Positions 2,317 to 24,979 of a stretch of DNA of 29,068 nt are shown piece by piece. The DNA lies in IMG/VR virus record IMGVR_UViG_3300027796_000037, positions 1 through 29,068 of that record; one strand, 5' to 3'. Position numbers and translations under genes: made by a program. The notes under the pieces were generated by a model, which ran no database searches, was not told the origin of the DNA, and saw only the letters and a list, made by a program, of their open reading frames with translations. Within the stretch, counting starts at the first letter, position 1. Each line of letters opens with the position of its first letter. This DNA is from a virus.

Positions 2317-2345
2317 AAAAAAAGACAGCCCTTTTCAAGGCTGTC
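2317..2345 (-). terminator. Leader intrinsic terminator, module 4
   Basis: On the minus strand GACAGCC and GGCTGTC form a perfect 7-bp stem with an 8-nt loop, followed by seven T and then GTGG. It lies between the promoter at 2385-2412 and the gene starting at 2297, so it would stop transcripts before that gene unless bypassed. A separate small hairpin (TCCGC, loop GTGAT, GCGGA; 2350-2364) lies just upstream in the same leader. Confidence 0.8.
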
Positions 2346-2384
2346 CGAATCCGCATCACGCGGACATTGACGTTCCTAAGTCCG

Positions 2385-2412
2385 ATATTATTATTTGATC
2401 AAAAAAAGTCAA
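2385..2412 (-). promoter_or_regulatory. Sigma70-like promoter, module 4
   Basis: The -35 box TTGACT (2412-2407) and -10 box TAATAT (2390-2385) are separated by 16 nt. The promoter begins just after the TAG stop (2417-2419) of the large virion gene. Predicted transcripts would start near 2378, form the 5' hairpin at 2350-2364 and meet the terminator at 2317-2345 before reaching the adaptor gene. Three other places in the window have the same layout. Confidence 0.7.
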
Positions 2413-2416
2413 GTGC

Positions 2417-5400
2417 CTATACAAGCGTTGTCCCGACTTTTGGCCCTTTGATCTTCTTAAATGAAATCGGTTTCATTTTCGTTGATGCAATCTTGATTGT
2501 TTTACTCTTTGCAGTCTTTGGTTTTGCTAACTTTGCAATCTTGATATTCTGCACCTTTGATGTTTTTGGAAGGGAAATATTGAACTTCTTACTCGCTGAC
2601 TTCTTGAACGTGATTTTCTTTAGTTTCTTTCCCGATCCATAGGATGAATATCCAGCAAGAGGGGGTAATCCTAGTTTTTCTCTTTGTGCATTGTTATATG
2701 CGGTATTTGCATCAAGATATTCTCGAACCCCCGGATATGTCCAATTCTTTGCATCCATCGCTGCTTGAACATCTGCCGATGCTATTGGCCGTGAGGATGA
2801 TTGTGAATTAGGTAATGGGTTTTCATCAAAATACTGACTTCGAATATCAAACATCGCAACAAGATCGGGATATGCTTTGGTCATTTCTTTTCTATCTTGT
2901 GATCCTTCCGGCAATGATTCATACCGCATATACCGCTTCGCTGTTTCATAATCCACAAGATATAATGGATCAATCGCTTTTCCTGTTCGTGCTGCGGTTT
3001 CTAATTCTGTCTTTTGTTTTGCCTCAAATACGCTTGGATATGTTAAATATATCTGATACTTTAATATTCGGGTGTCTGGATCATTTGAATCTGATTTTGG
3101 AATTGCGTTATATGCCTGTTGTGATTGGGTATCTAATTTTTTGTACGCTTCATCTTTTGCACCATAATAATATTTTGTGTCGATTTGTTTTTGTGTATAG
3201 TACCGTATCGGCAATTCCATTGCCCGTGATAATCGTTGATATGCCGGGTCTTTCTGATTAGTTGGACTGAATAATTCTTTTAAGTATGGATGATTAAATT
3301 GATTTGCATAATACTTAAGATTTTTAATCCATTTACCCATTGGAGCATCACTATCTTCTGATATTTGCTTTCCAAAATAATCCTCGTTTTTCATAATATC
3401 AAACGCTGGTTTAATTGGCTGGGATAATAACGTACCACCGACATCTTTGACTGCTGTTGTTACATCACCTTTTAGAACATTTCCAATGGTTCTAGCTCCT
3501 AATCTTGGAAGCGTAGCGATTGATGATAAGAACGGAATTGCAACAACAGTATCATCATCTGTGTTTCCAGTTATTTTTGACAAAGGAATCATCAATTTAT
3601 CTTCCATCCCTTGTGGGTTTTCTGTCATTCCATGTCCTGTCAACATTCTATTTGCTTGATCCATTGCGCCAATCGTAATAGCTGCACCAGCAAGAAATTT
3701 TGTATTATTTATATTTTCAGGAGCTAATGGATTTTTCAGACCTTTAATAGAGTTGACCCAAAAATTGACAATAGATTCTCTATATTTCGGTGCAAAGAAA
3801 AATGTTTTTACTGCCGCTCTTATTGTAGGGTTTGATGTTGCATCTTTATAGATTCCAGATGATCCATAAAAGTTTTTTACAGCTTTTGCAGCAATAGAAT
3901 CAGCTTGTTCTAACGAATACCCTTTTTTCTGTAAAGAGTTCGATATATCTTCAAAAAAATGTATCTGTAATGCCGGACTGAATCGTTTGAATGTCGGATC
4001 ATTGACTACCTTATTCCAAACATTTCCCAATACTCCCAATCCTTGTGGTGCAGACAGATCATTTATTGACCGACCAATGTTTACGGATATGTCATTCTGT
4101 TGCATCCGCTTAATGGTATCTATTTTAGAATCAAAATATTTTCTTCCAGCAAATAACGATTGAATTGGTGATTTTATTCTTCCTGCAAGAACTTCCTTAA
4201 GCATTTGTGCAGAAGTCCAAGCATTTACTGGTGTTCCCGGTAATCCACCTGACATAGTAATATCTTGAACTTTTCCTGATACATTTGATCCAAACTTAAG
4301 CAATGGGTTTACCGATGCTTTTTCTCCAAATACCTTATTTATTTCATCGGCAATTTCTTTTGGTGCATACCAACTTCCAATGAATGTTTTTCCTTCATCT
4401 ACCATTTGTGAAGACTGTGGAAATCCAATGGCTCGTACTGGTCTGAATCCAGAATCTTTAGCTCCAACTGCTGCCGGAACAATAAGACCCTGATCTTTTA
4501 ATTGCGTAAACGCTTCCATTCCATTTTGTACTTTTAATAATTGTTTGATTTGATACCCTAATATTTGTCTTGGATCAGTATATCGGGGAGTAAGACCCAT
4601 CTTTATACCTTCTTCATACGAAGGAATAGTCCTTGAGTTATTCAATCCATATTTGAACTTAAATTTTTGATATTGTTGTTGAACTTGTGTCGCTCCCTCT
4701 TTCCAAATATGAGATACATGATCCCGTAAATATCGAATATCCATTCCAGATTCTTTTGCTTGTGCAAATACCTGATCATCTAATTGTCGGTATTTATCTG
4801 CAAGAGGTTTTAGGTCTTCACGAACGTTTCCAGATTCCAAACCCTTAATCAATTCTTCTGCTTGAGTTTTGTTAGTTTTATCAAACTTTGTTCCGAACTG
4901 GTATCCTTCAAGTTCTGCGTTTTTATTATTACCTAGCCAACGGGATATAATTGATTTCCATTCTTTTTGGTTCCCCTCTGTTTTTATCTGTGCTGTTGCT
5001 TTCATTTGTTCAACATCAGTATTATTTATTCTTTGTGATTGATTTGCTTCTATTTGCGTTTTCCCTGTAATTGGTGTTCTATTCTGAACCATTGCATCCA
5101 TTTCAGCCTCAAAATTGCTTTTTTGTGGTATAATAGGCTTTGATGTTAGAGAATTTTTGTTATCTAGCAATGCTGTTTGTTGGTCTATTTTTACTTTTTG
5201 TGTATCTAAAGGACTGGAATCAACGGAAGTATTGGCAAGACCACGATTATTTTTTCCTAATTGTTGGGGGTTTATTTGTGCTTGGTTCTTGTTATTGTTT
5301 AATAATTTAATATTTTGCTTTGTCTTAACTCCCCCTATCTCTCCCCCTACTGGTGAGGATGGTTTAGAAATGCCTAATTCTGTTTCAACTGCAATCTTTG

Positions 5401-6373
5401 GATCAACTTTACGAACTGATTTTATTGACATTCCTACTTGCGGAAGTTTCCGTTGTAATTCTGCTGCTTTGGAAACAGCTAATTGATTGCGATAATATTT
5501 GTATAAATATTCTTCGACTTCTTCTTGGGACTTAAACTGTTTCATCCATGAAGGCCGAAGTTTTGAATCACTAGACAATAGTTGTTTTGTCCATGTTTTC
5601 GCTTGTGTTCGTGCATCACCTTGAATCTTATCGATAATGACTTTTCCTGTTCGTGCGATAGCTGATGTTCCTGCACCTAATACTCCACCAATAACAGCAC
5701 CCGTTCCTGCACCCATGATGGTTCCCTTGAGTTGATTCCATTCTGAATCCTGATTCTGTCTTGCTCCACCCAATGCTCCAAACGCTCCACCCATTTGAGC
5801 ACCTTGATACGCTCCTTGTTTAATCGACTGCATTAGAGGGTTTTTAATATATTGTGGTTGGTTAATAACTGAACTGATCCCTTGTTTGATTGCTTTTGGT
5901 GTACCAAGTGTTCCAACACCTTCTAATATTCCGGCAGTCTTTCCGATAAACTCTGTTGGTGTTTTTGACTGTGGAAGTCGGTATGCGTTATATACAAACT
6001 GCGGAAGTGCATTGGCATACCCTTCTCCAATTCCTGTTCCAACGTTTACACCTGCCTTGAATGGCATATTGACTGCATTTCTCACTTGTGTCGGAAGTTG
6101 TGGAAATAAAGGATTTGTATTGGCCCAATTTCTCACTCCCTGAAAATTGACGGGATTCTGTGGAATTGATGCAACAGTCCTTTGAACAAAGTTATGCACA
6201 GGCTCAAAGTTCATCGCTAATTTTGTAGCTCTTGGATGATTTTGTGCAAACTGTTGGATTGCTTGCCGACCTTGCGGAATATCCCGTTGGAAACTCTGAT
6301 ATAACTGTCCAGCGGGTGTTGCGCCTCCAATAAACCCCTTTAGCCTCTCTGCCAAGTCTTTCAATGTAGCCAC
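2417..6373 (-). CDS. Very large putative internal virion / DNA-ejection protein
   Basis: The product is 1318 aa. It starts with GTG at 6373, with AAAGGAGG 5 nt upstream. Residues about 190-250 are Gly/Ala-rich and hydrophobic (GAYQGAQMGGAFGALGG, GTGAVIGGVLGAGTS), like glycine-zipper membrane segments. Residues about 330-450 are polar, Asn/Gln/Lys-rich and probably flexible. The centre, from about residue 530, is helical and resembles the large polyvalent-protein modules found in phage internal proteins. It includes LRDHVSHIWKEG and later FFFAPKYRESIVNFWVN. The last ~75 residues are strongly basic with many Lys-Ile and Lys-Thr pairs, suggesting nucleic-acid contact. I see no transglycosylase motif. 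With the 369-aa gene before it and tail genes after it, a packaged protein ejected with the DNA is the best guess. Length and position support this; the function is not proven. Confidence 0.75.
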   Translation of the reverse strand: MATLKDLAERLKGFIGGATPAGQLYQSFQRDIPQGRQAIQQFAQNHPRATKLAMNFEPVHNFVQRTVASIPQNPVNFQGVRNWANTNPLFPQLPTQVRNAVNMPFKAGVNVGTGIGEGYANALPQFVYNAYRLPQSKTPTEFIGKTAGILEGVGTLGTPKAIKQGISSVINQPQYIKNPLMQSIKQGAYQGAQMGGAFGALGGARQNQDSEWNQLKGTIMGAGTGAVIGGVLGAGTSAIARTGKVIIDKIQGDARTQAKTWTKQLLSSDSKLRPSWMKQFKSQEEVEEYLYKYYRNQLAVSKAAELQRKLPQVGMSIKSVRKVDPKIAVETELGISKPSSPVGGEIGGVKTKQNIKLLNNNKNQAQINPQQLGKNNRGLANTSVDSSPLDTQKVKIDQQTALLDNKNSLTSKPIIPQKSNFEAEMDAMVQNRTPITGKTQIEANQSQRINNTDVEQMKATAQIKTEGNQKEWKSIISRWLGNNKNAELEGYQFGTKFDKTNKTQAEELIKGLESGNVREDLKPLADKYRQLDDQVFAQAKESGMDIRYLRDHVSHIWKEGATQVQQQYQKFKFKYGLNNSRTIPSYEEGIKMGLTPRYTDPRQILGYQIKQLLKVQNGMEAFTQLKDQGLIVPAAVGAKDSGFRPVRAIGFPQSSQMVDEGKTFIGSWYAPKEIADEINKVFGEKASVNPLLKFGSNVSGKVQDITMSGGLPGTPVNAWTSAQMLKEVLAGRIKSPIQSLFAGRKYFDSKIDTIKRMQQNDISVNIGRSINDLSAPQGLGVLGNVWNKVVNDPTFKRFSPALQIHFFEDISNSLQKKGYSLEQADSIAAKAVKNFYGSSGIYKDATSNPTIRAAVKTFFFAPKYRESIVNFWVNSIKGLKNPLAPENINNTKFLAGAAITIGAMDQANRMLTGHGMTENPQGMEDKLMIPLSKITGNTDDDTVVAIPFLSSIATLPRLGARTIGNVLKGDVTTAVKDVGGTLLSQPIKPAFDIMKNEDYFGKQISEDSDAPMGKWIKNLKYYANQFNHPYLKELFSPTNQKDPAYQRLSRAMELPIRYYTQKQIDTKYYYGAKDEAYKKLDTQSQQAYNAIPKSDSNDPDTRILKYQIYLTYPSVFEAKQKTELETAARTGKAIDPLYLVDYETAKRYMRYESLPEGSQDRKEMTKAYPDLVAMFDIRSQYFDENPLPNSQSSSRPIASADVQAAMDAKNWTYPGVREYLDANTAYNNAQREKLGLPPLAGYSSYGSGKKLKKITFKKSASKKFNISLPKTSKVQNIKIAKLAKPKTAKSKTIKIASTKMKPISFKKIKGPKVGTTLV

Positions 6374-6384
6374 AGGAACCTCCT

Positions 6385-7494
6385 TTAGCCGAATATGCTT
6401 TTCTTTTCTTCTGTCTTAGACCCGTATCCTGTTGCGACAGGAAGTTGATAATTTCCTGAGCTGTCAACACTTGGCATCCCGGTATTTAATCCTTGGAATT
6501 GGGGCATACTAGATGCAACGGTTTTCATGTTGGAAATTGCTTCCTGAACCGTCTTTGAGTTATTAAGTGCCCACGTTTCAAGTGTTTGTTGTCGGGATCG
6601 TGCGTCTGCCTGAACAGTCTGCAATTCAGTAAGTGCTTGATTGTATAACTGTTGGGATAGAGCCTGTAAGTCTTTAGACCGATTCAATCCTGACGATGCA
6701 AGACTGGATTTCAGATTTTGCTGTTGCGTAGAGAACCAATCAGCTATTTGTCCCATTCTTGAATTGAGTTCCGTTGATATACGGTTCTTTTCAGAATTGA
6801 AAATATCTCCGATCTGTTGCATCCGTGAATTAGCCTGACCCATAATATCTCCACGTGCTTTTGATCCGAGTTTAGATATGGCGTATGAATATTGATTCGC
6901 TGCGCTGGAATCCCCTGCGCCCCGTGAACCAAGATAAATATTCCCTGACTGGAACAGGTTTTTTACATTTGATCCTAAGTCTTTAAGATTTGATGCTTGC
7001 TGTTCATTGACCTGTCGTTCACTCCCACCCCGTTGAATACCAGCTTGATCGATTGCAAGGTTCGCTGAGTTCGCTGCAAGGCCTTCCTGTTCTTTACGGT
7101 ATCCCGGAAGATCAGTATTCAACATTGAATTGAGTTGTCCTTCATAGGAATCCCATCCTGAATTGATTTGATTTTGCATTTGATTCTGATAATCAGAACT
7201 TCCAGCTTGTTGTGATGCAAAATAATTATCATCCCATTGTCCCGTTGATGGATTTATATGTGGATCAAGATTGTTAGATGAACCACCAGATGAACCACCA
7301 GATGATCCTCCTGTTGGAAGTGGTGTCCATGAATTATTAGGAACCAAACTTCCACTTGATACACCTTGATTTATTGCACTATTATCAACAACTGGATAAT
7401 ATATTGATCCTGAGCCAATATTATTTGAATTGGGTGATAATGGTTGTAATGCACCAGAACTTATTAAACTATTAAAATCAATTTCTCCTGCCAT
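6385..7494 (-). CDS. Putative internal virion protein, coiled-coil rich
   Basis: The product is 369 aa with an ATG start preceded by AAGGAGG. Residues 1-60 are low-complexity (Ser, Asn, Pro, Gly). A Gly-Gly-Ser-Ser repeat follows at about 61-75, probably a flexible linker. Residues about 100-330 are a long Gln/Asn/Ser-rich helical region (NRISTELNSRMGQIADWF, SKDLQALSQQLYNQALTELQ) that should form coiled coils. I find no enzyme motif and no signal peptide. The gene is the first after the promoter module at 7512-7624, and its stop is followed closely by the GTG of the 1318-aa gene, so the two are very likely cotranscribed. Together they look like an ejection-protein pair. The call rests on composition and neighbourhood only. 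Confidence 0.7.
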   Translation of the reverse strand: MAGEIDFNSLISSGALQPLSPNSNNIGSGSIYYPVVDNSAINQGVSSGSLVPNNSWTPLPTGGSSGGSSGGSSNNLDPHINPSTGQWDDNYFASQQAGSSDYQNQMQNQINSGWDSYEGQLNSMLNTDLPGYRKEQEGLAANSANLAIDQAGIQRGGSERQVNEQQASNLKDLGSNVKNLFQSGNIYLGSRGAGDSSAANQYSYAISKLGSKARGDIMGQANSRMQQIGDIFNSEKNRISTELNSRMGQIADWFSTQQQNLKSSLASSGLNRSKDLQALSQQLYNQALTELQTVQADARSRQQTLETWALNNSKTVQEAISNMKTVASSMPQFQGLNTGMPSVDSSGNYQLPVATGYGSKTEEKKSIFG

Positions 7495-7511: not shown

Positions 7512-7555
7512 AAAAAATCCCCGTTCAGAAACATAAAACGTTCCCTACTTGAGGA
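7512..7555 (-). terminator. Weak terminator-like leader element, module 3
   Basis: On the minus strand TCCTC can pair with GGGGA, with an inner CGTTT/GAACG stem, followed by ATTTTTT and GTG. The hairpin is less regular than in the other three modules, but the order (promoter, 5' hairpin at 7564-7581, hairpin with T run, then GTG, then ribosome site) is the same. Termination here is plausible, not certain. Confidence 0.45.
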
Positions 7556-7596
7556 CTTGTTTTCCGACAACCTTGTGCCGGTTACTGCCTACTTAC

Positions 7597-7624
7597 AAAA
7601 TAAGTGATTTTCAATTCTTGTCAA
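7597..7624 (-). promoter_or_regulatory. Sigma70-like promoter, module 3
   Basis: TTGACA (7624-7619) and TATTTT (7602-7597) are separated by 16 nt. The -35 box overlaps the TGA stop of the glycosyltransferase gene that ends the sugar cluster. The promoter drives the pair of putative internal virion genes. The following leader has a 6-bp hairpin (CCGGCA, loop CAAGGT, TGTCGG; one G-U pair) at 7564-7581. Confidence 0.75.
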
Positions 7625-8712
7625 GTGCCTTCAATAATCTGCTGAATAAAGTCTGCATATGGCTTGATATTCTGCTGTATTTGCCGATTCTCTTTTACAT
7701 AATTATATGCGTTTGTTCCAATTTCAATTCGTTTCTCCCGGCTTTCAATCAATTCTTTGATAGCTGAATACCATTCCTGAGCTGTTTGTGCGAGGTATCC
7801 TGTCTTTCCATCTTCAATCGTATCAACATATGGTCGGGTGCGTGAGAATACTCCCGGCTTCATCGCTGATGCTGATTCACAGAATTTTATATCACTCTTG
7901 CATCGGTTGTACTTTGTATCGCGTAATGGAACAACCATAATATCCGCTTCATCCATAAAGATAGGAAATCTGTTTTCTATCCACTTATAAATATCTACAT
8001 CGCCAAAGTCATTTTCATACCGTATTCCCCACTTATACTTTAATTCAGGAACATACGATCCAATCGTCTTTAATTTCACATTCGGATAATCTGAGAATAT
8101 TTTATTGATTCCCTCAACAAAGTCTTTATCTAAAAGATCGTCAAAGTGTCCAGTTGCTCCAAAGTGCATGAGGGTAATCTGTTGTCTGTCTTTTGGTGGG
8201 AAGGTTTTACTATACCGTGTAAAGTCGACCTGATTCGGCATGATTTTTACCTTGTCATGGTACTTCCTGCTCTTATCGACTATCACATTTCTCAAATACG
8301 GGTTCGTTGTAGTTACTCCATCTACATCGCTAATAATACAACTGAGAATATAATCTGCATTGAGTTTCTTGAATTGCTCATACGTTATATTATCTTTTTG
8401 AACAAACCATATTGCATCATCTACGTCTAATATAATTTTCTTCCCCTCTCCCCGGACACACGCACCCATCGCTGCGTACTGCCAATCAAGCACCGTGTAA
8501 TTGAGAAATACCGCATCATATTCTTTTGCAATTTCCAACCAACTGTCTTTCTTGTCATTGTGAATGTCGTACAATGTTACTTCAAAACGTACATCACCAT
8601 TCTCATACCCATTAAGGTACTTCATTGGTTGAATAACCCGTGCATAATCCACTCCTGATGTCCGTTCTTTTGTCTGATGGCTTGGTACTGCATAGATTTT
8701 ATATGTCTTCAT
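7621..8712 (-). CDS. GT-B (GT4-like) glycosyltransferase
   Basis: The product is 363 aa. The ATG at 8712 follows a purine-rich GGGGGG ribosome site and overlaps the preceding stop by 4 nt. The N-terminal half has LDVDDAIWF, seen in GT4-like enzymes, and a Rossmann-type start. The C-terminal half holds the usual GT-B donor-site pattern KSDIKFCESASAMKPGVFS and then DGKTGYLAQTAQEW, as in GT4 enzymes (the E-x7-E region followed by the NG-loop). It probably transfers a nucleotide-activated sugar in the cytoplasm, but the donor and acceptor cannot be read from sequence. It is the last gene of the sugar cluster and is cotranscribed with it. The fold call is firm; specificity is unknown. Confidence 0.85.
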   Translation of the reverse strand: MKTYKIYAVPSHQTKERTSGVDYARVIQPMKYLNGYENGDVRFEVTLYDIHNDKKDSWLEIAKEYDAVFLNYTVLDWQYAAMGACVRGEGKKIILDVDDAIWFVQKDNITYEQFKKLNADYILSCIISDVDGVTTTNPYLRNVIVDKSRKYHDKVKIMPNQVDFTRYSKTFPPKDRQQITLMHFGATGHFDDLLDKDFVEGINKIFSDYPNVKLKTIGSYVPELKYKWGIRYENDFGDVDIYKWIENRFPIFMDEADIMVVPLRDTKYNRCKSDIKFCESASAMKPGVFSRTRPYVDTIEDGKTGYLAQTAQEWYSAIKELIESREKRIEIGTNAYNYVKENRQIQQNIKPYADFIQQIIEGT

Positions 8713-9482
8713 ATTCCCCCCTGTGTTTCATCGATGAATTGGTCAAGTCTGATAGAAAAAAGGTCGTACAGGTCAACGTAGTGGCTTCTGAACTCATCAA
8801 TATCGAGTGTTTTCTCCTCTCCAAGTATTCCAATCCCATTTAATCCCGGTTCATACTTGCGTAATTCATTCTCATCATATTCTCCGTAATACATCACTCT
8901 GCATCCGCAAAGTCGGGCAACTTCCATCATGGCGGAAATCTTGTCGTAACAGTACATGACTTGGCACTCGTTGAGTAAGTCTGCTAATGCTCCCTGATCT
9001 GATGAAAACTCACGTGTCAGTTCTATTGATCCTTCCGGGTGTTGTCTTCTATTTGTCCCTTTACCAATTAAGTAACAGGTCTTTGTCCGTTTCTTTTTCT
9101 GATCTTTGAATAGGTGCATATTGAGGATCGGTAGGAATAAAACATGATCTTCTTTTACCCCAACCGTATCAAAGAGTTTTGAAAAGACATATATAGAATC
9201 AGTTGGATCAAAGGATGTTGGTCCGGGTGTAAAGTTTCCATATTGATCTGTTGCTCCCATAACACCGGGTGTATTAAGAAGATACCGAACAACAGTCTTT
9301 GCACCCATTGGATTGCCATGTACGATCTCAGGATAAACTGCGATCCGATCAACATTCGGATACCTATTCATGTAGGCAATCTGTCCTTTAGCAAGAAGCC
9401 ACCCATATAGTCCCCACATGACACGAATACCACCAGAAGTAGGATCGAAGTCAGGACTACTCAATACATAGGGTTTATACAT
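8709..9482 (-). CDS. Putative GT-B glycosyltransferase
   Basis: The product is 257 aa. The ATG overlaps the preceding stop by 8 nt and has AAGGTGG 3 nt upstream. The N-terminus SGGIRVMWGLYGWLLAKG is the Gly-rich acceptor-side loop typical of GT-B enzymes. The centre (VLFLPILNMHLF, then KTCYLIGKG) and the later EVARLCGCRVMYYGE resemble the inter-domain and donor-binding parts of WsaF-like or GT4-like transferases, though the protein is shorter than usual (about 350 aa). It may use a reduced C-terminal domain. It lies between two other transferases in an overlapping operon, so a role in building the same glycan is likely. Confidence 0.7.
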   Translation of the reverse strand: MYKPYVLSSPDFDPTSGGIRVMWGLYGWLLAKGQIAYMNRYPNVDRIAVYPEIVHGNPMGAKTVVRYLLNTPGVMGATDQYGNFTPGPTSFDPTDSIYVFSKLFDTVGVKEDHVLFLPILNMHLFKDQKKKRTKTCYLIGKGTNRRQHPEGSIELTREFSSDQGALADLLNECQVMYCYDKISAMMEVARLCGCRVMYYGEYDENELRKYEPGLNGIGILGEEKTLDIDEFRSHYVDLYDLFSIRLDQFIDETQGGI

Positions 9483-10209
9483 TGACCACCTTCACAGTCT
9501 GTCCGTAATAGGCAATCTTCCTCATCCATTCACGAACATCATCTTTAAGTGGCATCTGATCGAAGTCTAGTTTCGGAAATACATTCCCCCGTGCGAAGTG
9601 ATAGGCAATTACTTGTTCATTCCGGCACATAAGTTTATCGTCTTCTATGTAAAATTGTGGCTCTCTGCCCAATGACTTGCATCCGTAGTAATCTTTGTCT
9701 TTATCAAATATCCGAAGGGACAACTCCGGCATATGATTATAAATTACAAGGTTCATCACATCATTTTCTTTCCGAATGTAATTCATCGCTTCTCTGTTTG
9801 CGTCTTCCCATGTATCCCAAAACTTCTTGTTTGTTGAAGCAACTAATCCACCTTGCAAGTACATTTCCTCAGTAATATTGTCAAAGGATGAGTTTTCATA
9901 ATCGTTGTAATTCCACGGACAACCAACATCATAATTTCCTTCTAATATCCGTTCCATTCTGCCGGCAATAAAATGATCAGCGTCAATATTCACAACAAGG
10001 TCATAATCGTTATAGAGAAGTTTTGCGAATGTCGGTTTTGCATTGTAAAAGTTTATTCCCTTTTCCTTGAATACTTGATCCACCATGTTCTGTCTAAAAA
10101 CCACTAAATCAATATCAGGATGGAACCGCTTAAAAGAATTGATAAAGATATGCGTTCCCTCAGGGTAATAATGAGCGTCATCTACAAGGGTAAAGAATAC
10201 AGTTTTCAT
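9475..10209 (-). CDS. GT-A glycosyltransferase (GT8-like)
   Basis: The product is 244 aa. The ATG has GGGAGG 5 nt upstream and overlaps the stop of the methyltransferase gene by 4 nt. It has the GT-A layout: an N-terminal strand MKTVFFTLVDD, then a DXD metal and nucleotide-sugar motif in VVNIDADHF near residue 75. LQGGLVAST and the late YHFARGN segment fit the acceptor and second metal-binding regions of GT8-type enzymes. It would act in the cytoplasm on a nucleotide sugar. Donor and acceptor are unknown. Confidence 0.8.
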   Translation of the reverse strand: MKTVFFTLVDDAHYYPEGTHIFINSFKRFHPDIDLVVFRQNMVDQVFKEKGINFYNAKPTFAKLLYNDYDLVVNIDADHFIAGRMERILEGNYDVGCPWNYNDYENSSFDNITEEMYLQGGLVASTNKKFWDTWEDANREAMNYIRKENDVMNLVIYNHMPELSLRIFDKDKDYYGCKSLGREPQFYIEDDKLMCRNEQVIAYHFARGNVFPKLDFDQMPLKDDVREWMRKIAYYGQTVKVVNV

Positions 10210-10787
10210 TTTTTCCTCCCTACAAAGTGTGAATCATTCCCAGTCCATTTATATCCATGCTGATTAAGAATATTTTTGATAGAAAGCCATGTTCCTTGTC
10301 CGTGCGTTTCACCAACTATCAATCCAACTCTATCGAATGGAAAATCCTCTGCTAAAAGTATTTCTTCTTCTGCACCCTCAACATCTAATTTAAGAATATC
10401 AACATAATCAAGGCTTTCTCTTGACATGAAGTTTCCAAATGAAAAAACCTGAACAGTACTGTCACTCTTTCCTGCAAAGTGCCATGATCCACCACTTGGA
10501 CTTCCCGCTTTTTCAATATACCGTTCTCCTGTATAGCCTCCAATTCCAAAACACAACGGTATAATCTTTTTAAGATCATTCATTTCAATATTCTTTTTAA
10601 TGGCATTGATGTTTTCTTGTGCAAAGTCGATAGCATAAATCTTTTTTGCCAATGGATATATCCACATTGAAAATGTCCCGATATTACAACCAACATCAAC
10701 AACCGTAAAATCACGGAACATATAGGAATATTCATTCCCTTCTATGACTTCTCGAACAAATCGGTCTGTATCACAGTCAATGAGCAT
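10206..10787 (-). CDS. FkbM-family SAM-dependent methyltransferase
   Basis: The product is 193 aa. The start ATG has GAGGT 4 nt upstream. SAM-binding motif I is VVDVGCNIGTFS near residue 29, with the acidic ribose-binding residue in YAIDFAQ. The family hallmark DILKLDVEGAEEEIL follows at about residues 128-142. FkbM enzymes O-methylate sugar or polyketide hydroxyls, so this one probably methylates a sugar made or transferred by its neighbours. At 193 aa it is near the small end of the family. A second FkbM gene lies directly upstream, suggesting two methylation positions or an old duplication. Confidence 0.88.
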   Translation of the reverse strand: MLIDCDTDRFVREVIEGNEYSYMFRDFTVVDVGCNIGTFSMWIYPLAKKIYAIDFAQENINAIKKNIEMNDLKKIIPLCFGIGGYTGERYIEKAGSPSGGSWHFAGKSDSTVQVFSFGNFMSRESLDYVDILKLDVEGAEEEILLAEDFPFDRVGLIVGETHGQGTWLSIKNILNQHGYKWTGNDSHFVGRKK

Positions 10788-10789
10788 AG

Positions 10790-11521
10790 TTACCTCGAAA
10801 ATAAAATGACAATTGCGGAACAGTTATATCGCCTTGCTTTATATCCCATGTCTAATAGATATTGAGCAAGATCAGGCCATGAAGGGAAATGAAACTCAAT
10901 TTCAATAGCTTTTATCCTGTCTGCTACTTTTTTGAACCCTTCTGAGCGAAGTATCATGTCTTCTGATCCCTCAACGTCAAACTTCATAAAATCCACTTCA
11001 TCAATCTTATTTTCCTCAAAGAAGGTATCAATCGCAAAAGTTTTGACGCTAACGGTTGTATTATATCCGCTTGTGTGCATCTCACCTCCCATTCCCTTAA
11101 TACCTGTATTGAGAATATAGTTTCCATCAGCACTCTTATTATTAGGGTTTACAATAAGCGTATTCATTGTTCTATTGCCATCGTTCATGGAAAACTCCAT
11201 CTCTCCATCTTTATCTGCAAGCGCAATATTGAAGACTTCCACGTTGTCCCAATTGTTGAACTCTTTATTTTTCTTGAGTGCCTCGAAATGCTCTGGTGAT
11301 GGTTCTATGGCATACAATTTCTTTGCATGAGGTTGAAGGTGCTGTGTCACAACCCCGATATTTGCTCCAACATCAAGAATCGTCATGTCATTTTTTCCGT
11401 TGAGTATATCGATGTATACTCCATCAAAGTAAATCTCTTTATAAATATATGGGATATACAATGAATCAAACGGAATGGGTTTGTCTTCTGTTCCCTTTGG
11501 ATAAAATAATGCTCCTAACAT
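10790..11521 (-). CDS. FkbM-family SAM-dependent methyltransferase
   Basis: The product is 243 aa. The ATG at 11521 is preferred over an upstream ATG at 11578, because GAGGAGGG lies 8 nt before it and the longer form would overlap the preceding gene. Motif I is ILDVGANIGVVT, followed by YAIEPSPEHFEALKKN (ribose contact and helix), and the FkbM motif DFMKFDVEGSEDMIL lies in the C-terminal half. The terminal YNCSAIVILFSR strand is typical. The expected substrate is a sugar hydroxyl. It differs clearly from the neighbouring FkbM protein, so this is not a recent duplication. Confidence 0.88.
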   Translation of the reverse strand: MLGALFYPKGTEDKPIPFDSLYIPYIYKEIYFDGVYIDILNGKNDMTILDVGANIGVVTQHLQPHAKKLYAIEPSPEHFEALKKNKEFNNWDNVEVFNIALADKDGEMEFSMNDGNRTMNTLIVNPNNKSADGNYILNTGIKGMGGEMHTSGYNTTVSVKTFAIDTFFEENKIDEVDFMKFDVEGSEDMILRSEGFKKVADRIKAIEIEFHFPSWPDLAQYLLDMGYKARRYNCSAIVILFSR

Positions 11522-11522
11522 A

Positions 11523-12125
11523 TTACAGTCCCTCCTCAATAACCATATCTTGATACTTTTCCCTATTATAGGAATCATTAGCCCAATGCCACCCTTTATT
11601 TTCGATCATATAATCAGAACCAAAATAATGGGAAAGCCAATCATGCTGATTTTTTGGAGTTGACACACGTCTTCCACCAAGGTCAATACAATTAAATTCT
11701 TCAAGCTGTTCCTTTGGCCATGTTAAGCACGTATCACATCCCATATATTCAATCCACTTTGTTTTTCCTTCCCAAAAAGTCGCTATCAAAGCAATTCCCG
11801 GATTCATAGACCAATGATCCTCATTCTTTGATAGATATTTAATTATTGGTTCAGGACCAAAATATATAAGTGAGTTTTCTTTTTTATCTCCTACGGATTG
11901 AAAGTAAGGAAAATCATGTTTAAGGTCGGATAAAAATTGTTGTGATATGTCTTGCGCTCTCATTCCGAAATTTAATTCTTTATCAAACGGTATACGATCT
12001 AGTAGTTTATGATTTCTTATTTGTCCTAAAAGCGTTGATCCATGAATAAAATATTGCACTTTCTTTTTATCAAGATAATCAACAACGTATTTCCACCAAT
12101 CATCAAGTGTTTCAATAGGGATCAT
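11523..12125 (-). CDS. LicD-like phosphotransferase / nucleotidyltransferase-fold protein
   Basis: The product is 200 aa. The ATG at 12125 has AAAGGAA upstream; a TTG at 12131 is the other option. The N-terminal IHGSTLLGQIRNHKLL followed by PFDKELNFGM matches the LicD pattern (GTLLGAxR, then acidic residues before DIGM). LicD usually has several Asp residues where this protein has D-x-E, so the active site may vary. The C-terminal HDWLSHYFGSDYM corresponds to the LicD segment with a Trp and a Tyr-Gly. LicD-family proteins move phosphocholine or phospho-alditols from CDP-linked donors. The neighbouring cytidylyltransferase gene, overlapped by 14 nt, could supply such a donor. Confidence 0.7.
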   Translation of the reverse strand: MIPIETLDDWWKYVVDYLDKKKVQYFIHGSTLLGQIRNHKLLDRIPFDKELNFGMRAQDISQQFLSDLKHDFPYFQSVGDKKENSLIYFGPEPIIKYLSKNEDHWSMNPGIALIATFWEGKTKWIEYMGCDTCLTWPKEQLEEFNCIDLGGRRVSTPKNQHDWLSHYFGSDYMIENKGWHWANDSYNREKYQDMVIEEGL

Positions 12126-12531
12126 ACTCAATTCCTTTCTTTATTTTTGTTGAACTAATTTCTTCCGTATATGGAACATAAACTAATCGTGGATATAACC
12201 ATTCCTTGTCTACGTTATATTGCTTTGCTAAGTCTTTTGTAGCCCAATCACTCCCAATAACAATAATGTCAGCGTTTACTTCTTCTATCTGTTGTTTTGT
12301 TTGAAGGTTATTTGCCTCAATTACCATATCTACATATCTACATGATTTTATAATTTCCATTCGGTGTTCAAATGGAATTGTTGAAGAATATCCACGGTAT
12401 CGAACATATGCTTCATCGGAAAGCACAGCTACAATAACGCTGTCAGATCCAGCAAGTTGTCTACACCTTCTCAATAAATTTACATGACCAATGTGAAAAA
12501 GATCGAATGATCCTTGCGTATAAACTCTCAT
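12112..12531 (-). CDS. Cytidylyltransferase, glycerol-3-phosphate type
   Basis: The product is 139 aa, close to the usual length of TagD-like enzymes. The HxGH nucleotide-binding motif is HIGH at residues 13-16, preceded by TQGSFDLF. The second family motif is EEISSTKIKKGI near residue 122, comparable to the ISTTKI of glycerol-3-phosphate cytidylyltransferases. The expected reaction is CTP plus an alditol or sugar phosphate giving a CDP-linked product and pyrophosphate. The start ATG overlaps the preceding stop as ATGA. The exact substrate (glycerol, ribitol, another polyol or a sugar phosphate) is not decided by sequence. Confidence 0.85.
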   Translation of the reverse strand: MRVYTQGSFDLFHIGHVNLLRRCRQLAGSDSVIVAVLSDEAYVRYRGYSSTIPFEHRMEIIKSCRYVDMVIEANNLQTKQQIEEVNADIIVIGSDWATKDLAKQYNVDKEWLYPRLVYVPYTEEISSTKIKKGIEYDPY

Positions 12532-12839
12532 AAGCTGTAAAGAATAAAAAGAACCAATACATGAAGTGCTTGATCAATATATAAATATCTTTTGTCTAAT
12601 GGATCAGGTGCAAATTGAACCTTCCATTCATCAGTCAGGAAATGCGTGAAGAATAGGATAGGAAGTTTCCAGTCTGCATACTGTCCAAGCATAGAAAATG
12701 CTATCGCGATTCCACCAGTCCATATAAAACAATGTTCCATCATCACATACCAATTAGCCTTCTTTGCAATAAGCATCCATGATGGTTGAAGTGCTGCGTC
12801 TGAAATATAGTGAGCAAATAATATCCAAAAGAAATCCAT
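12528..12839 (-). CDS. DUF3307-like small membrane protein
   Basis: The product is 103 aa. The ATG has AGAGGT 4 nt upstream and lies directly after the stop of the transketolase subunit gene. It has three or four hydrophobic segments: about 2-17, 32-52, 57-68 and 89-103. His-Tyr-x-x-Ser-Asp-Ala near the start, a mid-chain EHCFIWT, then HFLTDEWK and YIDQALHVL match the spaced His/Asp pattern of the DUF3307 family. It would sit in the cytoplasmic membrane. Its function is unknown. Its place inside a sugar operon could mean a membrane-linked acceptor or transport step, but that is only context. Confidence 0.65.
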   Translation of the reverse strand: MDFFWILFAHYISDAALQPSWMLIAKKANWYVMMEHCFIWTGGIAIAFSMLGQYADWKLPILFFTHFLTDEWKVQFAPDPLDKRYLYIDQALHVLVLFILYSL

Positions 12840-12840
12840 A

Positions 12841-14763: not shown

Positions 14764-14803
14764 TCGAGCGGCCATATGCCGCATAACCTATACTCTGTAT
14801 GTA

Positions 14804-14823
14804 ATTATATCACACGCTGTCAA
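14804..14823 (-). promoter_or_regulatory. Sigma70-like promoter, module 2 (extended -10)
   Basis: TGATATAAT (14812-14804) is an extended -10 box with a perfect TATAAT. A TTGACA at 14823-14818 lies only 8 nt upstream of it, too close to serve as its -35. If that TTGACA is used, the -10 would be a poor CATACA 16 nt downstream. The extended -10 choice places the 5' hairpin 21 nt after the -10 box, close to the 19-20 nt seen in modules 1 and 4. It drives the sugar cluster. Confidence 0.7.
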
Positions 14824-19790: not shown

Positions 19791-20007
19791 CCGCACGAAT
19801 CATCAATAATTCATGCCGGAACCTCTCAACCGCCCTGCGGTCATCATTCCGAATTGCCATAATAAGTTTCTTCCGATAATCCTCGACCATCGGGCTTTCT
19901 GATCTGATCCGATAGAGTGTCCGATCAATCATGTCCCTCTCAAAGAGGTTACGCGCTTTATCCCGATGCTCTAAGAGCTGTAATATGTCTTCTTTTCGTG
20001 TATCCAT
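19765..20007 (-). CDS. Small charged helical protein, unknown
   Basis: The product is 80 aa from the ATG at 20007. A longer reading to 20085 would lie inside the HNH gene and has a different composition. It is almost entirely helical and strongly charged (TRKEDILQLLEHRDKARNLF, RAVERFRHELLMIRAD). The HNH gene overlaps its first 50 nt and no Shine-Dalgarno sequence is visible, so the endonuclease may have inserted over its original ribosome site. Head-tail connector context; function unknown. Confidence 0.6.
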   Translation of the reverse strand: MDTRKEDILQLLEHRDKARNLFERDMIDRTLYRIRSESPMVEDYRKKLIMAIRNDDRRAVERFRHELLMIRADETHGHDY

Positions 20008-20599
20008 ACGTTTCAAATAATTTATGACACTTTGAACATAATTCAATCCATGTATCTTTATTTTCTCTGTCGTACTTTCCATCAAGATTATGCCATTGAG
20101 TAGGATTTTTTATCCTTCCCTGTGGTGTTGGAATATCACCACAATTCTGACATATCCCTGACTTATTCCAATGTTTAATGATCCACTTATGCTTAGAAGT
20201 GTAACTTGCGTTATTACCCTTCCAACTTTCGTGCTTTTCTCCTATAATTCCAATTCTTCCTTTGTAACTATGATTTTCTAACCCTGAAATAATTGCCTTT
20301 TTCTGCATTTCTCTATAATCTTCCTTCGACCTTTTTTTTGCATTTATCCTATTTATTTGAGTTATTTTCAAAAGCGCACTTTTTTTATGCTTTTGGAAAT
20401 GACCCATATTCGGATATTTTTCCCTATCAATCTTTATTCCAAAGTTCCAAGATTTCTTTCCAATTTTATCTAAATCTGAACACTTTCTACTGCAAAATCT
20501 GGTTGAAATCCACTTTGTTCTACTTAAATATCTTTTTTTTCCAAAAACTTTTTTACAATATTCACATACTTTTGTTTCAGGTGGGGATATAGTTTTCAT
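19958..20599 (-). CDS. Free-standing HNH homing endonuclease
   Basis: The product is 213 aa. An N-terminal zinc-finger-like motif has Cys at 12, 15, 36 and 40. The middle is Lys-rich and DNA-binding in character. The C-terminal HNH region has a CQNCG and CSKCH zinc pair around QWHNLDGKYDRENKDTW. The gene is visibly more A/T-rich than the flanking structural genes, which suggests recent arrival. It lies between the capsid gene and a small head gene, and its last ~16 codons run into the next gene. Its ribosome site and start codon are folded into a 12-bp hairpin (20580-20610). It would cut related phage DNA lacking the insert and spread by repair. Confidence 0.88.
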   Translation of the reverse strand: MKTISPPETKVCEYCKKVFGKKRYLSRTKWISTRFCSRKCSDLDKIGKKSWNFGIKIDREKYPNMGHFQKHKKSALLKITQINRINAKKRSKEDYREMQKKAIISGLENHSYKGRIGIIGEKHESWKGNNASYTSKHKWIIKHWNKSGICQNCGDIPTPQGRIKNPTQWHNLDGKYDRENKDTWIELCSKCHKLFETYGYTKRRHITALRASG

Positions 20600-20657: not shown

Positions 20658-21614
20658 CTACACAGCGGCGAATCTGGCGGCGACTACCCAAGCTGAGTTG
20701 AGTAATTTACACGCATAGCTTCCTGCCCAAGATATGATAGAAATACGCCCTGCGGGTGAATTGCTATCGACTTGATTCGGAAGAATGTAAAGTTTCGGCT
20801 GATCTTTCTCAAGATCATAGATACCGAAGGCATCTTTGCCATGAACATAGGTATAGAACCTAGTTGTGGTAGAAGAAGCTGTTGAGGCTGCTTCTGTGCC
20901 GGACATGACATCAATGTTTAATAACCAGCGAACTCCATAGAGTTCACCGATTTCACCTTTGTAGAGGCCTTTTACGTCAGAATACGTTTTTGCTGCTACC
21001 CACGTGGTATCTGCAATAAGGTTATTCTTTGAGTATGGGTCTGTTTTCCCCAAGAACAAGCCATCCTGATATTTCATCGCTTTGGCAAGCTCAAGAGTGC
21101 GAACCATCGCACGGATATCACACGCATCAAGGGTGTCACCTGCCGTGAACGAAGCCACGTTATGTGTGTTACCGAAGAATGATGTGCCGTTTTGAAGTTC
21201 GTTTCCTACAAGTCGGTTCAATGTTTCTCCCATGTTCTGTCCCATCGCTTCAACTGCTTCTTTCATGTTGGTATCAATAGATACTAACGAGCCAAGACGG
21301 GATGTTTGAGTGGTTAGACCATACTCAGACAATGTCATGGAAACGGTTGATAGATTGATTGCACAGGTTACTGGGTTGGACATTTCTCCAAGAGGAGTTG
21401 TTACAACCGAGAATGGTTGGAACCGTGTGAAATTGACTGTGCGACCTTCATTGGTCGGGTGAGTTCTTTTTTGACCTCCCTCTCCTAAAATGAACGGATA
21501 TTGTGCACGTGCCAAGAACACTTTTTCGTAATATGTTGCTACACCGGGAGCCAACGTTCCAGACGAAATGTTTGGATTGCTGACGCCGGAAATTCCTGAT
21601 CCTACGACTGCCAT
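20658..21614 (-). CDS. Major capsid protein, N4-gp56 family
   Basis: The product is 318 aa. The ATG is preceded by AAAGGATGG. Segments TYYEKVFLARAQYPFILGEG, KRTHPTNEGRTVNFTRF, LSEYGLTTQTSRLG and AVEAMGQNMGETLNRLVGNE appear in the order seen in N4-gp56-type capsid proteins, which have the HK97 fold. Length is in the expected range (about 300-400 aa). It follows the scaffold-like gene, as is usual. There is no obvious cleaved prodomain, consistent with a separate scaffold protein. This is the main shell subunit of the head. Confidence 0.92.
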   Translation of the reverse strand: MAVVGSGISGVSNPNISSGTLAPGVATYYEKVFLARAQYPFILGEGGQKRTHPTNEGRTVNFTRFQPFSVVTTPLGEMSNPVTCAINLSTVSMTLSEYGLTTQTSRLGSLVSIDTNMKEAVEAMGQNMGETLNRLVGNELQNGTSFFGNTHNVASFTAGDTLDACDIRAMVRTLELAKAMKYQDGLFLGKTDPYSKNNLIADTTWVAAKTYSDVKGLYKGEIGELYGVRWLLNIDVMSGTEAASTASSTTTRFYTYVHGKDAFGIYDLEKDQPKLYILPNQVDSNSPAGRISIISWAGSYACKLLNSAWVVAARFAAV

Positions 21615-21667: not shown

Positions 21668-22420
21668 TTAGTTGACGAATCCCAGTTCTTTTTCAAGTTC
21701 TGCAATCGACTTATCACTATGCGTTTTTCCACCTTTCGTTGATACAGAAGTCGGTCGTGTGGCGGTTTCAGATACTTGCTTTGCTATATTCTCTGTTACC
21801 TTGCCGACTTCTTTTTGTACCGCCCTTGTGTAGGGTTTCATCATCTTTTCCACGAATTTCTTAGGTGATGCTGTGTAGGGGTTAGCCTTCACATAGGCCT
21901 CTGTGGCCTCGGTAATCGAATCGGATAGTTCCCTATCAAAGTCAACGTGATCAGGATCAAGTTGTGGAAATAGCTGAACAACCTGCTGTGCCTCAGAATT
22001 GATCCGGGTGATTGCTTCGCTCTGTTTAATCTTTAGACTAACCAGACTTTCCGCTGTCCGCATCACGTCTTGTTTGTACTGTTCGGTTGTTAATTCAGAC
22101 CCTTCACTCACTTGCGGTTGATATGGTGCCTGTGGCATCTGTTGGTCTACTTGACCTGTAAGTTCCGCAAGTTTTTGTTCAAGGCTTTTTGCTTTTTCCT
22201 CAGCACTCTTTGCTTTCGCATTGAGTTCCCTGATTCTCTGATTCGCTCCTTTTTTGGGAGCTTCCTCCGTTTCAGTTTGTGTTTCCTCTGATTCCTCCAC
22301 CGTCGCTTCAGATTCAGGAGTTTCCACTTCCTCGGTTGCTTTTGGTTCTTCGGTTGACGGTTCCGAAACGCTGGCTTCTTCCCCAGCTTCAAGTTTTACG
22401 TCAAGTTGATCATCATTCAT
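21668..22420 (-). CDS. Putative capsid scaffolding protein
   Basis: The product is 250 aa. The ATG has AAGGAG 6 nt upstream. Residues 1-54 are extremely acidic (mostly Glu, Thr, Ser, Pro). Residues about 57-95 form a charged coiled coil (AKSAEEKAKSLEQKLAEL). The C-terminal half is helical, with basic residues (KMMKPYTRAVQKEVGKV). Position directly before the capsid gene, the acidic N-terminus, coiled coil and basic C-terminus are the classical look of a phage scaffold protein. No protease motif is present. Confidence 0.8.
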   Translation of the reverse strand: MNDDQLDVKLEAGEEASVSEPSTEEPKATEEVETPESEATVEESEETQTETEEAPKKGANQRIRELNAKAKSAEEKAKSLEQKLAELTGQVDQQMPQAPYQPQVSEGSELTTEQYKQDVMRTAESLVSLKIKQSEAITRINSEAQQVVQLFPQLDPDHVDFDRELSDSITEATEAYVKANPYTASPKKFVEKMMKPYTRAVQKEVGKVTENIAKQVSETATRPTSVSTKGGKTHSDKSIAELEKELGFVN

Positions 22421-22466
22421 GGTGATCTCCTTCCGTTACACACCGATTGCGTCATGTGAGAATACG

Positions 22467-22492: not shown

Positions 22493-22499
22493 ATCACGC

Positions 22500-22745: not shown

Positions 22746-23043
22746 AAGCCTCCTTGCTATCCGATACTTTATTGAGCAGCTTATTGATGATCCCTTTAGT
22801 CAGGGATATGACAATCGTGTTCTTTCCTAATTCTTCATACGTTGCCCCATTTGCTACTGCTGAATCATTCAACTGATCTAATTCTTTAACTAATGTTTCT
22901 GCATACTCTGAAAAGAGTTTCCATCCATTCGTCTTGCTCATCCCATAGAGCATTTGTTCATCATCTGTTGCTTCTTTCTTCGTGTCTTCCCGTTGAAGCG
23001 TAGGAAAGCTGGAATAGAAATCAGGTCGGACTGCTTTAGCCAT
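22720..23043 (-). CDS. Small head-block protein, unknown
   Basis: The product is 107 aa. The ATG is preceded by AAGGAGG. The N-terminus (VRPDFYSSFPTLQRED) is polar; most of the rest is helical (GWKLFSEYAETLVKELDQL). I recognise no family or catalytic motif. It overlaps the portal gene end by 8 nt, so it is translated with the portal. Function unknown. Confidence 0.65.
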   Translation of the reverse strand: MAKAVRPDFYSSFPTLQREDTKKEATDDEQMLYGMSKTNGWKLFSEYAETLVKELDQLNDSAVANGATYEELGKNTIVISLTKGIINKLLNKVSDSKEACERPSAKQ

Positions 23044-24868
23044 TGAATCCTCCTTGTTGTGGTAGTTGTTCCATTTGTGGTTGCATCTGCTGTTCCATCT
23101 GTCCCGGTTGTGTTGGAACTTGGTTCATGTTCCCGGATACTGCCTGTTGCATCGCCATCTGAAGCTGTTGCTGTTGTTGCATGAGAATTGCATCGTCTTT
23201 TTCTTCCGGGGTCTTCTCGACCACGATCTTGTCCCAATCCTGTATTCCTGAGTTGGATACAACTTTCTTGAATAGCTCACCCAATTTGACGGTAAACCCT
23301 TCCTGATCAAGCTTTTGGATTAAGGCATCACCCATCTGTGGGTTAGCAGTAAACATGGTCAGAAGGTTCGTCAGATTATCCTGCTGGCTCTTTTGATCAA
23401 GAGCGAATGTTGATCCTGATACCAGTTCATAGTCATAGACTGTTGATCCTGTGGTCTTTTTATCAATCGTGACTTTCCCGGTCTTTGGATCGTACATCTG
23501 CTCAATGTCTTTATAACTGCGTGCCAATTCTTCAACCTCATTCTCAAACAACCGTAATGTTATGGCTGATGATTGTTTTTTTGAAATGAGGTTGACCATT
23601 TTCTTATAAACTTTTTTCAGGTATTGCTCCATGAAAAATCTATCAGCGTTATCACGGGTATTCTCCCGTTGTGATTGCATCTTTAATGCTTGTGGTGTCT
23701 TTCCAAACCCTGCTTCTGTCTGTTGTGTGACTGAGGTATCTGTTGTTCCAAACAGATTAAGAAGTGATCCATTGGCCACTTGGTAGGTATTGTTGAATGT
23801 TGCAATACCCTGAGGGTTTAAGTTGATCGGCATGGCTACGTTGCTGATATTTCCCCGTGCTAACCACTTTGCAGCCGGAACATACTGAATGGATGATGAT
23901 GATGCGATGTTATCTTTGTTTAATATGACTGGCGGGAATATGGACATCTTGACCGCATCAAGATAGAGGTTCCATGCGCTATTGATCGCCTGTTGCATGG
24001 ATGCTCCACGTTCAAAATCACCCATCCCCATAAAATCATCCAAGAGTGGAATGGAGTATTTGCAGACAACAGGTAATTCACCGTCATCATGCGGGTTCTT
24101 AATATCCCGAAACTCCATGTCTGCATCGGTGCAGAAGTCTACCCACCGATCACCTTCGTACTGTGTCAGGACTTCGTAATATCCTTTGGACTTTGCTTCT
24201 TCGCTTGTCGGATATGCTGTGTCTTCTCTCCTCGACTTCTCATCTGAATCCCGGTCTTGTTTTGATCCGGCTCTGTCTTTCAGTTCGGTAATGATCTTGT
24301 CTATATTCTTGAATCCTTCACGTTTAGATTCTTTGAGGTTTTCAAAATATGACAATGGTTTCCATGTACGGACGATGATGTAATCACTATCGTCTACACT
24401 TACTGCTCCCACTTGCGGGAATACATCACGGATATTTAATAGCCATATATCAGGCCCAACGTATCCATTCTTTTTGACATCCCAATCCACAAGCGTAAAG
24501 AAATTTCCGTAGATGTTGGAATATAAATCTACCATCCGAAGTTTTGTCAGAAGATCAAACTGTGCATTTGCATTGGGATTGACATACTTCTCAAGAATCA
24601 AGTTCATCAAAGATGCTGCACCCATATCGTTTCTTGATATTGCTTTGACTTTCCCAACAGGAAGCTGTGCCATGACCCGATAGGATCGTTCAAGAGAAAG
24701 TGTTGAGAGTTTTGGATCAAAGACTGAGGACCTTGTTGTTCCTGAAATGGAATCGGCTAGTTGGTTATGAAAGAGTTTTTCGTAGGTATCCCATGCTTCT
24801 GTTTTAGTCGAAAGATAATCCTCTGCTGCGCTTTTACGGGTTAGAATTTCATCACGTATTTTTGACAT
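23036..24868 (-). CDS. Portal protein
   Basis: The product is 610 aa. The ATG at 24868 has AAGGA 4 nt upstream. A reading from 24940 would translate the leader terminator hairpin and is rejected. Size and order (after the terminase, before scaffold and capsid) fit a phage portal. Segments such as DLYSNIYGNFFTLVDWDV, FPQVGAVSVDDSDYIIVRTW and the long helix region QKSQQDNLTNLLTMFTAN resemble podovirus portal proteins, with a wing and clip core. The last ~50 residues are Gln/Met/Pro-rich, probably an inward-facing or disordered tail. It forms the dodecameric DNA gate and docks the terminase. It is the first gene after promoter module 1. Confidence 0.85.
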   Translation of the reverse strand: MSKIRDEILTRKSAAEDYLSTKTEAWDTYEKLFHNQLADSISGTTRSSVFDPKLSTLSLERSYRVMAQLPVGKVKAISRNDMGAASLMNLILEKYVNPNANAQFDLLTKLRMVDLYSNIYGNFFTLVDWDVKKNGYVGPDIWLLNIRDVFPQVGAVSVDDSDYIIVRTWKPLSYFENLKESKREGFKNIDKIITELKDRAGSKQDRDSDEKSRREDTAYPTSEEAKSKGYYEVLTQYEGDRWVDFCTDADMEFRDIKNPHDDGELPVVCKYSIPLLDDFMGMGDFERGASMQQAINSAWNLYLDAVKMSIFPPVILNKDNIASSSSIQYVPAAKWLARGNISNVAMPINLNPQGIATFNNTYQVANGSLLNLFGTTDTSVTQQTEAGFGKTPQALKMQSQRENTRDNADRFFMEQYLKKVYKKMVNLISKKQSSAITLRLFENEVEELARSYKDIEQMYDPKTGKVTIDKKTTGSTVYDYELVSGSTFALDQKSQQDNLTNLLTMFTANPQMGDALIQKLDQEGFTVKLGELFKKVVSNSGIQDWDKIVVEKTPEEKDDAILMQQQQQLQMAMQQAVSGNMNQVPTQPGQMEQQMQPQMEQLPQQGGFNG

Positions 24869-24887
24869 AGGTTCCTTTGATTGCCAC

Positions 24888-24914
24888 AAAAAAAGCAGGG
24901 GGACTTCCCCTGCT
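24888..24914 (-). terminator. Leader intrinsic terminator, module 1
   Basis: On the minus strand AGCAGGGG and CCCCTGCT form an 8-bp stem with a 5-nt loop, followed by seven T and GTGG. It is placed between the promoter at 24952-24979 and the portal gene. The 5' hairpin GCTGC, loop ATATG, GCAGC (24918-24932) lies directly upstream. Confidence 0.85.
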
Positions 24915-24951
24915 AGAGCTGCCATATGCAGCATGAGCAATATTGATTAGC

Positions 24952-24979
24952 AGAATAAATGGTTTTTGATTTCTGTCAA
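24952..24979 (-). promoter_or_regulatory. Sigma70-like promoter, module 1
   Basis: TTGACA (24979-24974) and TATTCT (24957-24952) are separated by 16 nt. This is almost the same layout as the promoter at 7597-7624. It lies just after the stop of the ORF ending at 24986 and should drive the portal, scaffold and capsid block, if the leader terminator is passed. Confidence 0.75.

Follow-up and report, generated by a model that had tools for sequence, protein, structure and literature searches.

A putative RNA attenuator repeated before the late gene blocks of an uncultivated phage and conserved in divergent relatives

The late genes of the analyzed virus are encoded on the minus strand and are preceded, block by block, by four leaders that we interpret as one kind of RNA attenuator, on balance probably a local antitermination switch that is stabilized by a factor and repeated before each late block. 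The window, i.e., the whole stretch of DNA under study, is the complete IMG/VR virus record IMGVR_UViG_3300027796_000037 (29,068 bases). The layout of the leaders, their conservation, the covariation of an outer helix (P1) and an inner hairpin (P2), and the overlap of the former with the terminator are shown by the sequences. In known phages, late genes are switched on by a dedicated RNA polymerase, by a sigma factor or an activator, or through a single antitermination site. The late genes studied here may be under a repeated RNA switch rather than one master antiterminator site; if so, such a repeated-attenuator regulon would be a different way of timing late genes in a large group of uncultivated podoviruses, and its leaders would offer compact promoter-attenuator parts.

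At all four sites the same order can be read directly on the minus strand: a promoter-like -35 box, a small hairpin, a terminator-like hairpin, a run of six or seven T, GTG(G), and the start of a gene (Table 1). This four-fold order had been claimed in an earlier note on this DNA, and a scan of the window returns exactly the same sites. With a terminator defined as a hairpin of -9.5 kcal/mol or lower followed by at least five T, and with TTGAC[AT] located 14-85 nt upstream, the minus strand contains four matches that end exactly at the four leaders, compared with one match on the plus strand and 0.47 per strand in dinucleotide shuffles (maximum 3, 60 shuffles). The sigma70-like promoters and intrinsic terminators described in the note are confirmed, with corrections: the -35 boxes are present at all four sites, but leader 2 has no good -10 box at a spacer of 16-17 nt, its likely -10 being the extended box TGTGATATAAT just 8 nt past TTGACA; T6-T7 runs are likewise present at every site, but the terminator of leader 3 is irregular. 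A similarly short spacing is also seen in two leaders of relatives, L003 and L056. Comparison with the Rfam covariance models gave no gathering-level match in the window, and only chance-level matches in two leaders.

Table 1. Coordinates of the leaders, their predicted RNA elements, and selected late genes in the window.
Feature	Position	Strand	Details
Terminase gene	25319-26488	minus	
68-aa protein gene	24986-25192	minus	NLVKNKRIRY at the basic C-terminus; end of gene adjoins leader 1
Leader 1 (head block, portal gene)	24888-24979	minus	-35 TTGACA 24979-24974; -10 TATTCT 24957-24952
Leader 1 helices			P1 TGCT 24939-24936 with AGCA 24914-24911; P2 GCTGC(ATATG)GCAGC 24932-24918
Leader 1 terminator	24914-24888	minus	T7; first bases are the P1 3' strand AGCA
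Portal gene	23036-24862	minus	first gene past leader 1; PHROG head-tail adaptor/portal matches
Scaffold-like gene	21668-22420	minus	
Major head protein gene	20658-21614	minus	
Leader 2 (sugar cluster, epimerase gene)	14735-14823	minus	-35 TTGACA 14823-14818; extended -10 (TATAAT 14809-14804)
Leader 2 helices			P1 GGTT 14788-14785 with GACC 14765-14762; P2 GCGGC(ATATG)GCCGC 14782-14768; terminator to 14735
Sugar/glycosyltransferase cluster	7621-14717	minus	
NAD-dependent epimerase gene	13929-14717	minus	first gene past leader 2; Pfam Epimerase, E=8e-21
Leader 3 (internal-protein block, ORF 6385-7494)	7512-7624	minus	-35 TTGACA 7624-7619; -10 TATTTT 7602-7597
Leader 3 helices			weak, marginal P1 AGG 7590-7588 with CCT 7554-7552; P2 CCGGCA(CAAGGT)TGTCGG 7581-7564
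Leader 3 terminator	to 7512	minus	irregular
Gene for 369-aa virion/internal protein candidate	6385-7494	minus	first gene past leader 3
1318-aa ORF	2417-6373	minus	
Leader 4 (tail block, SU10-like adaptor gene)	2317-2412	minus	-35 TTGACT 2412-2407; -10 TAATAT 2390-2385
Leader 4 helices			P1 GTC 2371-2369 with GAC 2345-2343; internal loop AATG; P2 TCCGC(GTGAT)GCGGA 2364-2350
Leader 4 terminator	2346-2317	minus	
SU10-type adaptor gene	1617-2297	minus	first gene past leader 4; Pfam SU10_adaptor, 37 bits

Searches with the portal, head and adaptor proteins gathered well over 100 relatives. Among the non-redundant ones, a terminator stands directly before the portal gene in 78 of 81 upstream regions; the promoter rule is passed by 59 of the 81, and TTGACA is visible in most of the others. 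In 20 long relative records, a strict scanner identified 37 modules on the late strand and one on the other strand (0-1 in shuffles), and none with promoter and terminator in the reversed order. Modules account for 37 of the 51 late-strand terminators in these records, several of the remaining 14 being modules that the strict rule missed. The modules are followed by homologues of the portal, the adaptor, ORF 6385, and the epimerase, as well as by a further late gene, c14. Thus, the modules head each functional block, as the earlier note had stated, and the relatives retain hairpin and terminator at the boundaries where their absence was to count against its proposal. In P22 and in HK022, the same scanner detects a single module on the plus strand, in each case the known Q-dependent pR'-tR' region, and it gives one further strict match on the other strand of P22; no module was found in 40 kb of SU10. 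Sequence comparison thus indicates that dozens of divergent phages keep the module design, and no cultured phage was found among them; searches of cultured phages for nucleotide and protein relatives of the window gave none that was useful or close. The only hint of a host is a 4.7-kb phage contig within a Chloroflexi MAG, which is too weak to name one.

Beyond the -35 and TG-10 boxes, 101 leaders share little sequence information, and a phage-specific DNA element is conceivable. The GTG(G) reported after the T-run exists in the window but is local to it and not family-wide, since 47 of the 101 leaders have the triplet ATG at this place and 9 have GTG. In relatives such as L003, L042, and L120, the portal start codon abuts the terminator U-tract and has no Shine-Dalgarno sequence, whereas the head-protein genes of many such relatives have a strong one (e.g., AAGGAGGTGA); translation of the portal, the first gene, may be unusual in these phages.

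Comparison of the leaders indicates that the small hairpin P2 is real and carries compensatory changes. A strong hairpin lies 0-10 nt before the terminator in 68 of 87 non-redundant leaders, compared with 22 in shuffles (maximum 33, 100 shuffles), and the P2 stems vary in sequence while their pairing is kept. When portal leaders were chosen by a TATAAT/TCTAAT-like loop motif only, all four flanking pairs were present in 13 of 18; the control values were 2.3% for the same motif elsewhere in the genomes and 0-2 in slid controls. In the tail/c14 class (CTTTACC-AAGAGTG-GGTTAGAC), two-sided changes occur in seven of nine pairs, and the covariation score was matched by none of 500 shuffles. The pair count of another alignment (A2) was excluded as evidence because this alignment had been chosen on pairing. 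Taken leader by leader, the MFE z-scores before the terminator are weak (19% at p<0.05), although they give a combined Fisher p=7e-7. A covariance model limited to P2 (R1) retrieves mostly its own training leaders, and a pattern scan with the CATATG hairpin of the window returned only a near-identical relative and one chance match. A correlation exists between the bases on either side of P2 (G...G 10, A...A 14, A...T 6, others 3; Fisher 1e-6 with relatedness ignored). In the portal class, e.g., L125 (3147-3247), the G...G and A...A combinations suggest a non-canonical pair in a structured internal loop. Two other interpretations of the P2 region were rejected by inspection: a mini-ORF (ATG NNN CTA TAA), whose ATG is ATA in about half of the leaders, and a second promoter formed by the TATAAT loop, which has no -35 box in register.

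The earlier note had described the small hairpin as an element of its own; it is present and covaries, but it is not freestanding, as the opening bases of the terminator form part of its outer helix in leaders 1, 2, and 4. In P1, 3-5 nt upstream of P2, near the RNA 5' end (median start 10 nt past the -10 box), pair with the bases that open the terminator 5' arm. For instance, one relative (G010) has GTGC-cgatg-CCGC-TATAAT-GCGG-gttaca-GCAC, where GCAC is the terminator foot that is also needed to pair with ...GTGTTTTTTT. When partners were swapped among leaders, none of 1000 permutations matched the observed P1 complementarity in the complete, portal, and non-portal sets, whether or not P2 was located beforehand; no excess of such pairing is seen farther up the terminator arm, in its apical part, and the P1 spans cluster at 21-29 nt. 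A 4-nt strand placed by rule directly before the internal-loop RAWR pairs with the terminator foot in 27 of 29 leaders (0/2000 permutations), and ten further, newly fetched leaders follow as a trend only (107/2000), all of these permutation tests accounting only partly for relatedness. Together, the compensatory changes in P2 and the sharing of the terminator foot by P1 are the findings new to this analysis.

Since the P1 3' strand is the terminator foot, the P1-P2 fold and the complete terminator are mutually exclusive beside the U-tract. Folded up to the terminator foot, leaders 1, 2, and 4 adopt exactly P1-P2 at -12 to -14 kcal/mol and leader 3 does so weakly; across leaders, the median is -7 kcal/mol for P1-P2, the antiterminator, vs. 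-13.8 kcal/mol for the terminator. In leader 1, the state combining P2 with the complete terminator is about 10 kcal/mol more stable, and therefore P1 cannot block termination on its own. P1 is a short helix, and either it or P2 is weak or missing in leader 3 and several relatives (the epimerase class and distant portal loci); the P1-P2 model is a poor fit to leader 3, to the epimerase class, and to the most distant relatives.

We propose that a host sigma70-type RNA polymerase would start at each leader promoter, and that the first ~40 nt of RNA would form an interrupted hairpin consisting of P1 (3-5 bp), a small internal loop with RAWR on its 5' side, P2, and a loop of 5-8 nt. P1-P2 would fold first, but being weaker than the terminator it would give way by default, so that only ~65-90 nt of RNA is made; read-through would then need something that holds P1-P2. 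Binding of a factor, most likely a phage RNA-binding protein, although a host factor, a sigma-dependent pause, or a ligand is possible, would hold P1-P2 so that the terminator cannot close beside the U-tract and the late block is transcribed. A single factor could turn on all late blocks together. Default termination, the existence and nature of the factor, and the timing are the predicted components of this model. The argument of the earlier note that a terminator before every block implies bypass remains sound, as read-through must be conditional if every promoter is followed by a terminator.

The leaders would thus work like a RAT or ANTAR attenuator by analogy, and we assign them to neither family. 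The resemblance to the RAT of BglG/SacY/LicT lies in an interrupted hairpin of ~30 nt directly before the terminator, an overlapping foot, and exclusive folds; in the RAT leaders of BglG/SacY proteins the terminator foot overlaps the end of the antiterminator hairpin, and one RAT protein can serve more than one operon, as in the NagY case (PMC9981650). However, a RAT-like consensus is not apparent by eye, a search for a CAT-RBD gene found none, and the leaders occur in phage late blocks, in 1-4 copies per genome, with the U-tract often abutting the start codon. With ANTAR/EutV they share repeated terminators before several genes of a regulon and a hairpin that overlaps the terminator stem, and in ANTAR leaders such switches are repeated at four terminators of one operon (PMC8934654). 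In contrast to the dual hexaloops of that system, there is one P2 per leader, and the loops TATAAT, ATATG, CAAGGT, and AAGAGTG fail the A1/G4 rule. A search of the literature on leader terminators at phage late promoters yielded nothing describing such a module.

Lambda Q and HK022 put act processively, and the put RNA binds the beta' zinc-binding domain. The earlier note had offered both as analogies, and a processive analogy is not supported, given that no Q-type gene and no shared DNA element besides the -35 and TG-10 boxes were found and that the RNA structure overlaps the terminator base. A processive mechanism loaded at the promoter (lambdoid Q/P22 gp23, phage 21 Q, AlpA) is in our estimate an unlikely explanation: a phage protein would bind promoter DNA and the paused polymerase, with the TATAAT in many P2 loops acting as a -10-like sigma-dependent pause, and the modified polymerase would pass the proximal and later terminators. 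The gross layout, a late promoter with an intrinsic terminator within 30-90 nt, is indeed that of AlpA and of pR'-tR', which the P22 and HK022 late-strand modules represent, and AlpA targets have terminators 26-54 nt past the start (PMC7969949). Of 40 portal leaders, 18 have TATAAT/TCTAAT-like motifs between the -10 box and the terminator (10.8 on average and at most 19 in shuffles), at varying distance from the -10 box; however, the window loops ATATG, CAAGGT, and GTGAT are poor -10 matches. P22 and HK022 have one site each, whereas the phages studied here have up to four; P1 is absent from the P22 and HK022 leaders, and the -35/-10 spacer has no DNA binding element conserved across the family. 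A processive mechanism does not need the adjacency of hairpin and terminator or their shared strand; these two features and the lack of a conserved promoter DNA element make a local switch the likelier explanation.

An RNA-only variant, in which the leader itself binds RNA polymerase as HK022 put does and renders it terminator-resistant with no protein involved, is highly improbable. Like put, the leaders are cis-acting structured RNAs right at a phage promoter with a -10-like sequence inside (at +23..+28 in putL; PMC9378689), and the shared protein clusters gave no universal early regulatory protein. Yet put spans ~70 nt with two stem-loops, has no terminator overlap, and works at terminators kilobases away, over 10 kb, whereas the leaders have a single interrupted hairpin of ~30 nt with fully variable stems, in which only loop and internal-loop motifs are kept and terminator bases are shared; besides, a constitutive put would make the terminators pointless. 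It also seems improbable, if less so, that these are ordinary insulated promoters, where leaky terminators end the upstream block and the hairpins protect the 5' end or lower translation with no regulated switch. Block-border terminators would also stop upstream transcription, and the first gene could conceivably be expressed at a low, constant level, given the abutting start codons that lack a Shine-Dalgarno sequence in many relatives, next to the strong ones of the MCP genes; but the terminators follow the promoter, with no case of the reversed order (37 vs. 0), which is the worst position for insulation, and the complementarity of P1 to the terminator foot would be left unexplained.

The preferred local switch calls for a trans-acting factor, and the search for a phage antiterminator gene suggested by the earlier note, carried out in the relatives, returned no known type. 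The Q families PF06530 and PF03589 are absent from all 20 related records at E<=1, although these records may be incomplete; the CAT-RBD PF03123 is likewise absent from the 20 records, and a host protein is conceivable. No NusG-type antiterminator was found, nor an ANTAR domain, the latter in a weak test in which no control genome passed the cut-off. The 68-aa protein encoded just upstream of leader 1 is a candidate for the factor and the first that we would test. In 20 of 21 records, a homologue of 60-75 aa with a conserved basic C-terminus (TLNIVKNRRRKY) is encoded immediately ahead of leader 1, and the exception (G018) appears to lack that region. The protein has no Pfam, PHROG, or PDB match, with at best a weak DUF2292 match for one member, and AlphaFold gives a confident small alpha/beta model (pLDDT 86). 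It is possible, although we regard it as doubtful, that the system represents a new phage RNA antiterminator family, in which a single phage-encoded RNA-binding protein from an undescribed family, perhaps the 68-aa protein, would bind the P1-P2 hairpin of each leader and so activate all late blocks simultaneously. A 92-aa protein resembling sigma70 region 4 (L126, G010 36588-36866) exceeds the Pfam cut-off in G010 only.

Several genes and ORFs of the window can be described briefly. The sugar cluster encodes epimerase, split transketolase-like, nucleotidyltransferase, and glycosyltransferase genes and is kept in most relatives; in G001 it has extra genes that by eye resemble a heptose-type pathway. 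The product of ORF 6385-7494 has homologues in 19 of 21 records, and its sole family signal is a weak Mu Gam-like stretch. A free-standing HNH endonuclease gene (19958-20599) adjoins the major head protein gene, and ORF 28610-28816 encodes Ser-Arg/Ser-Trp/Ser-Gly repeats with the look of a low-complexity tandem repeat.
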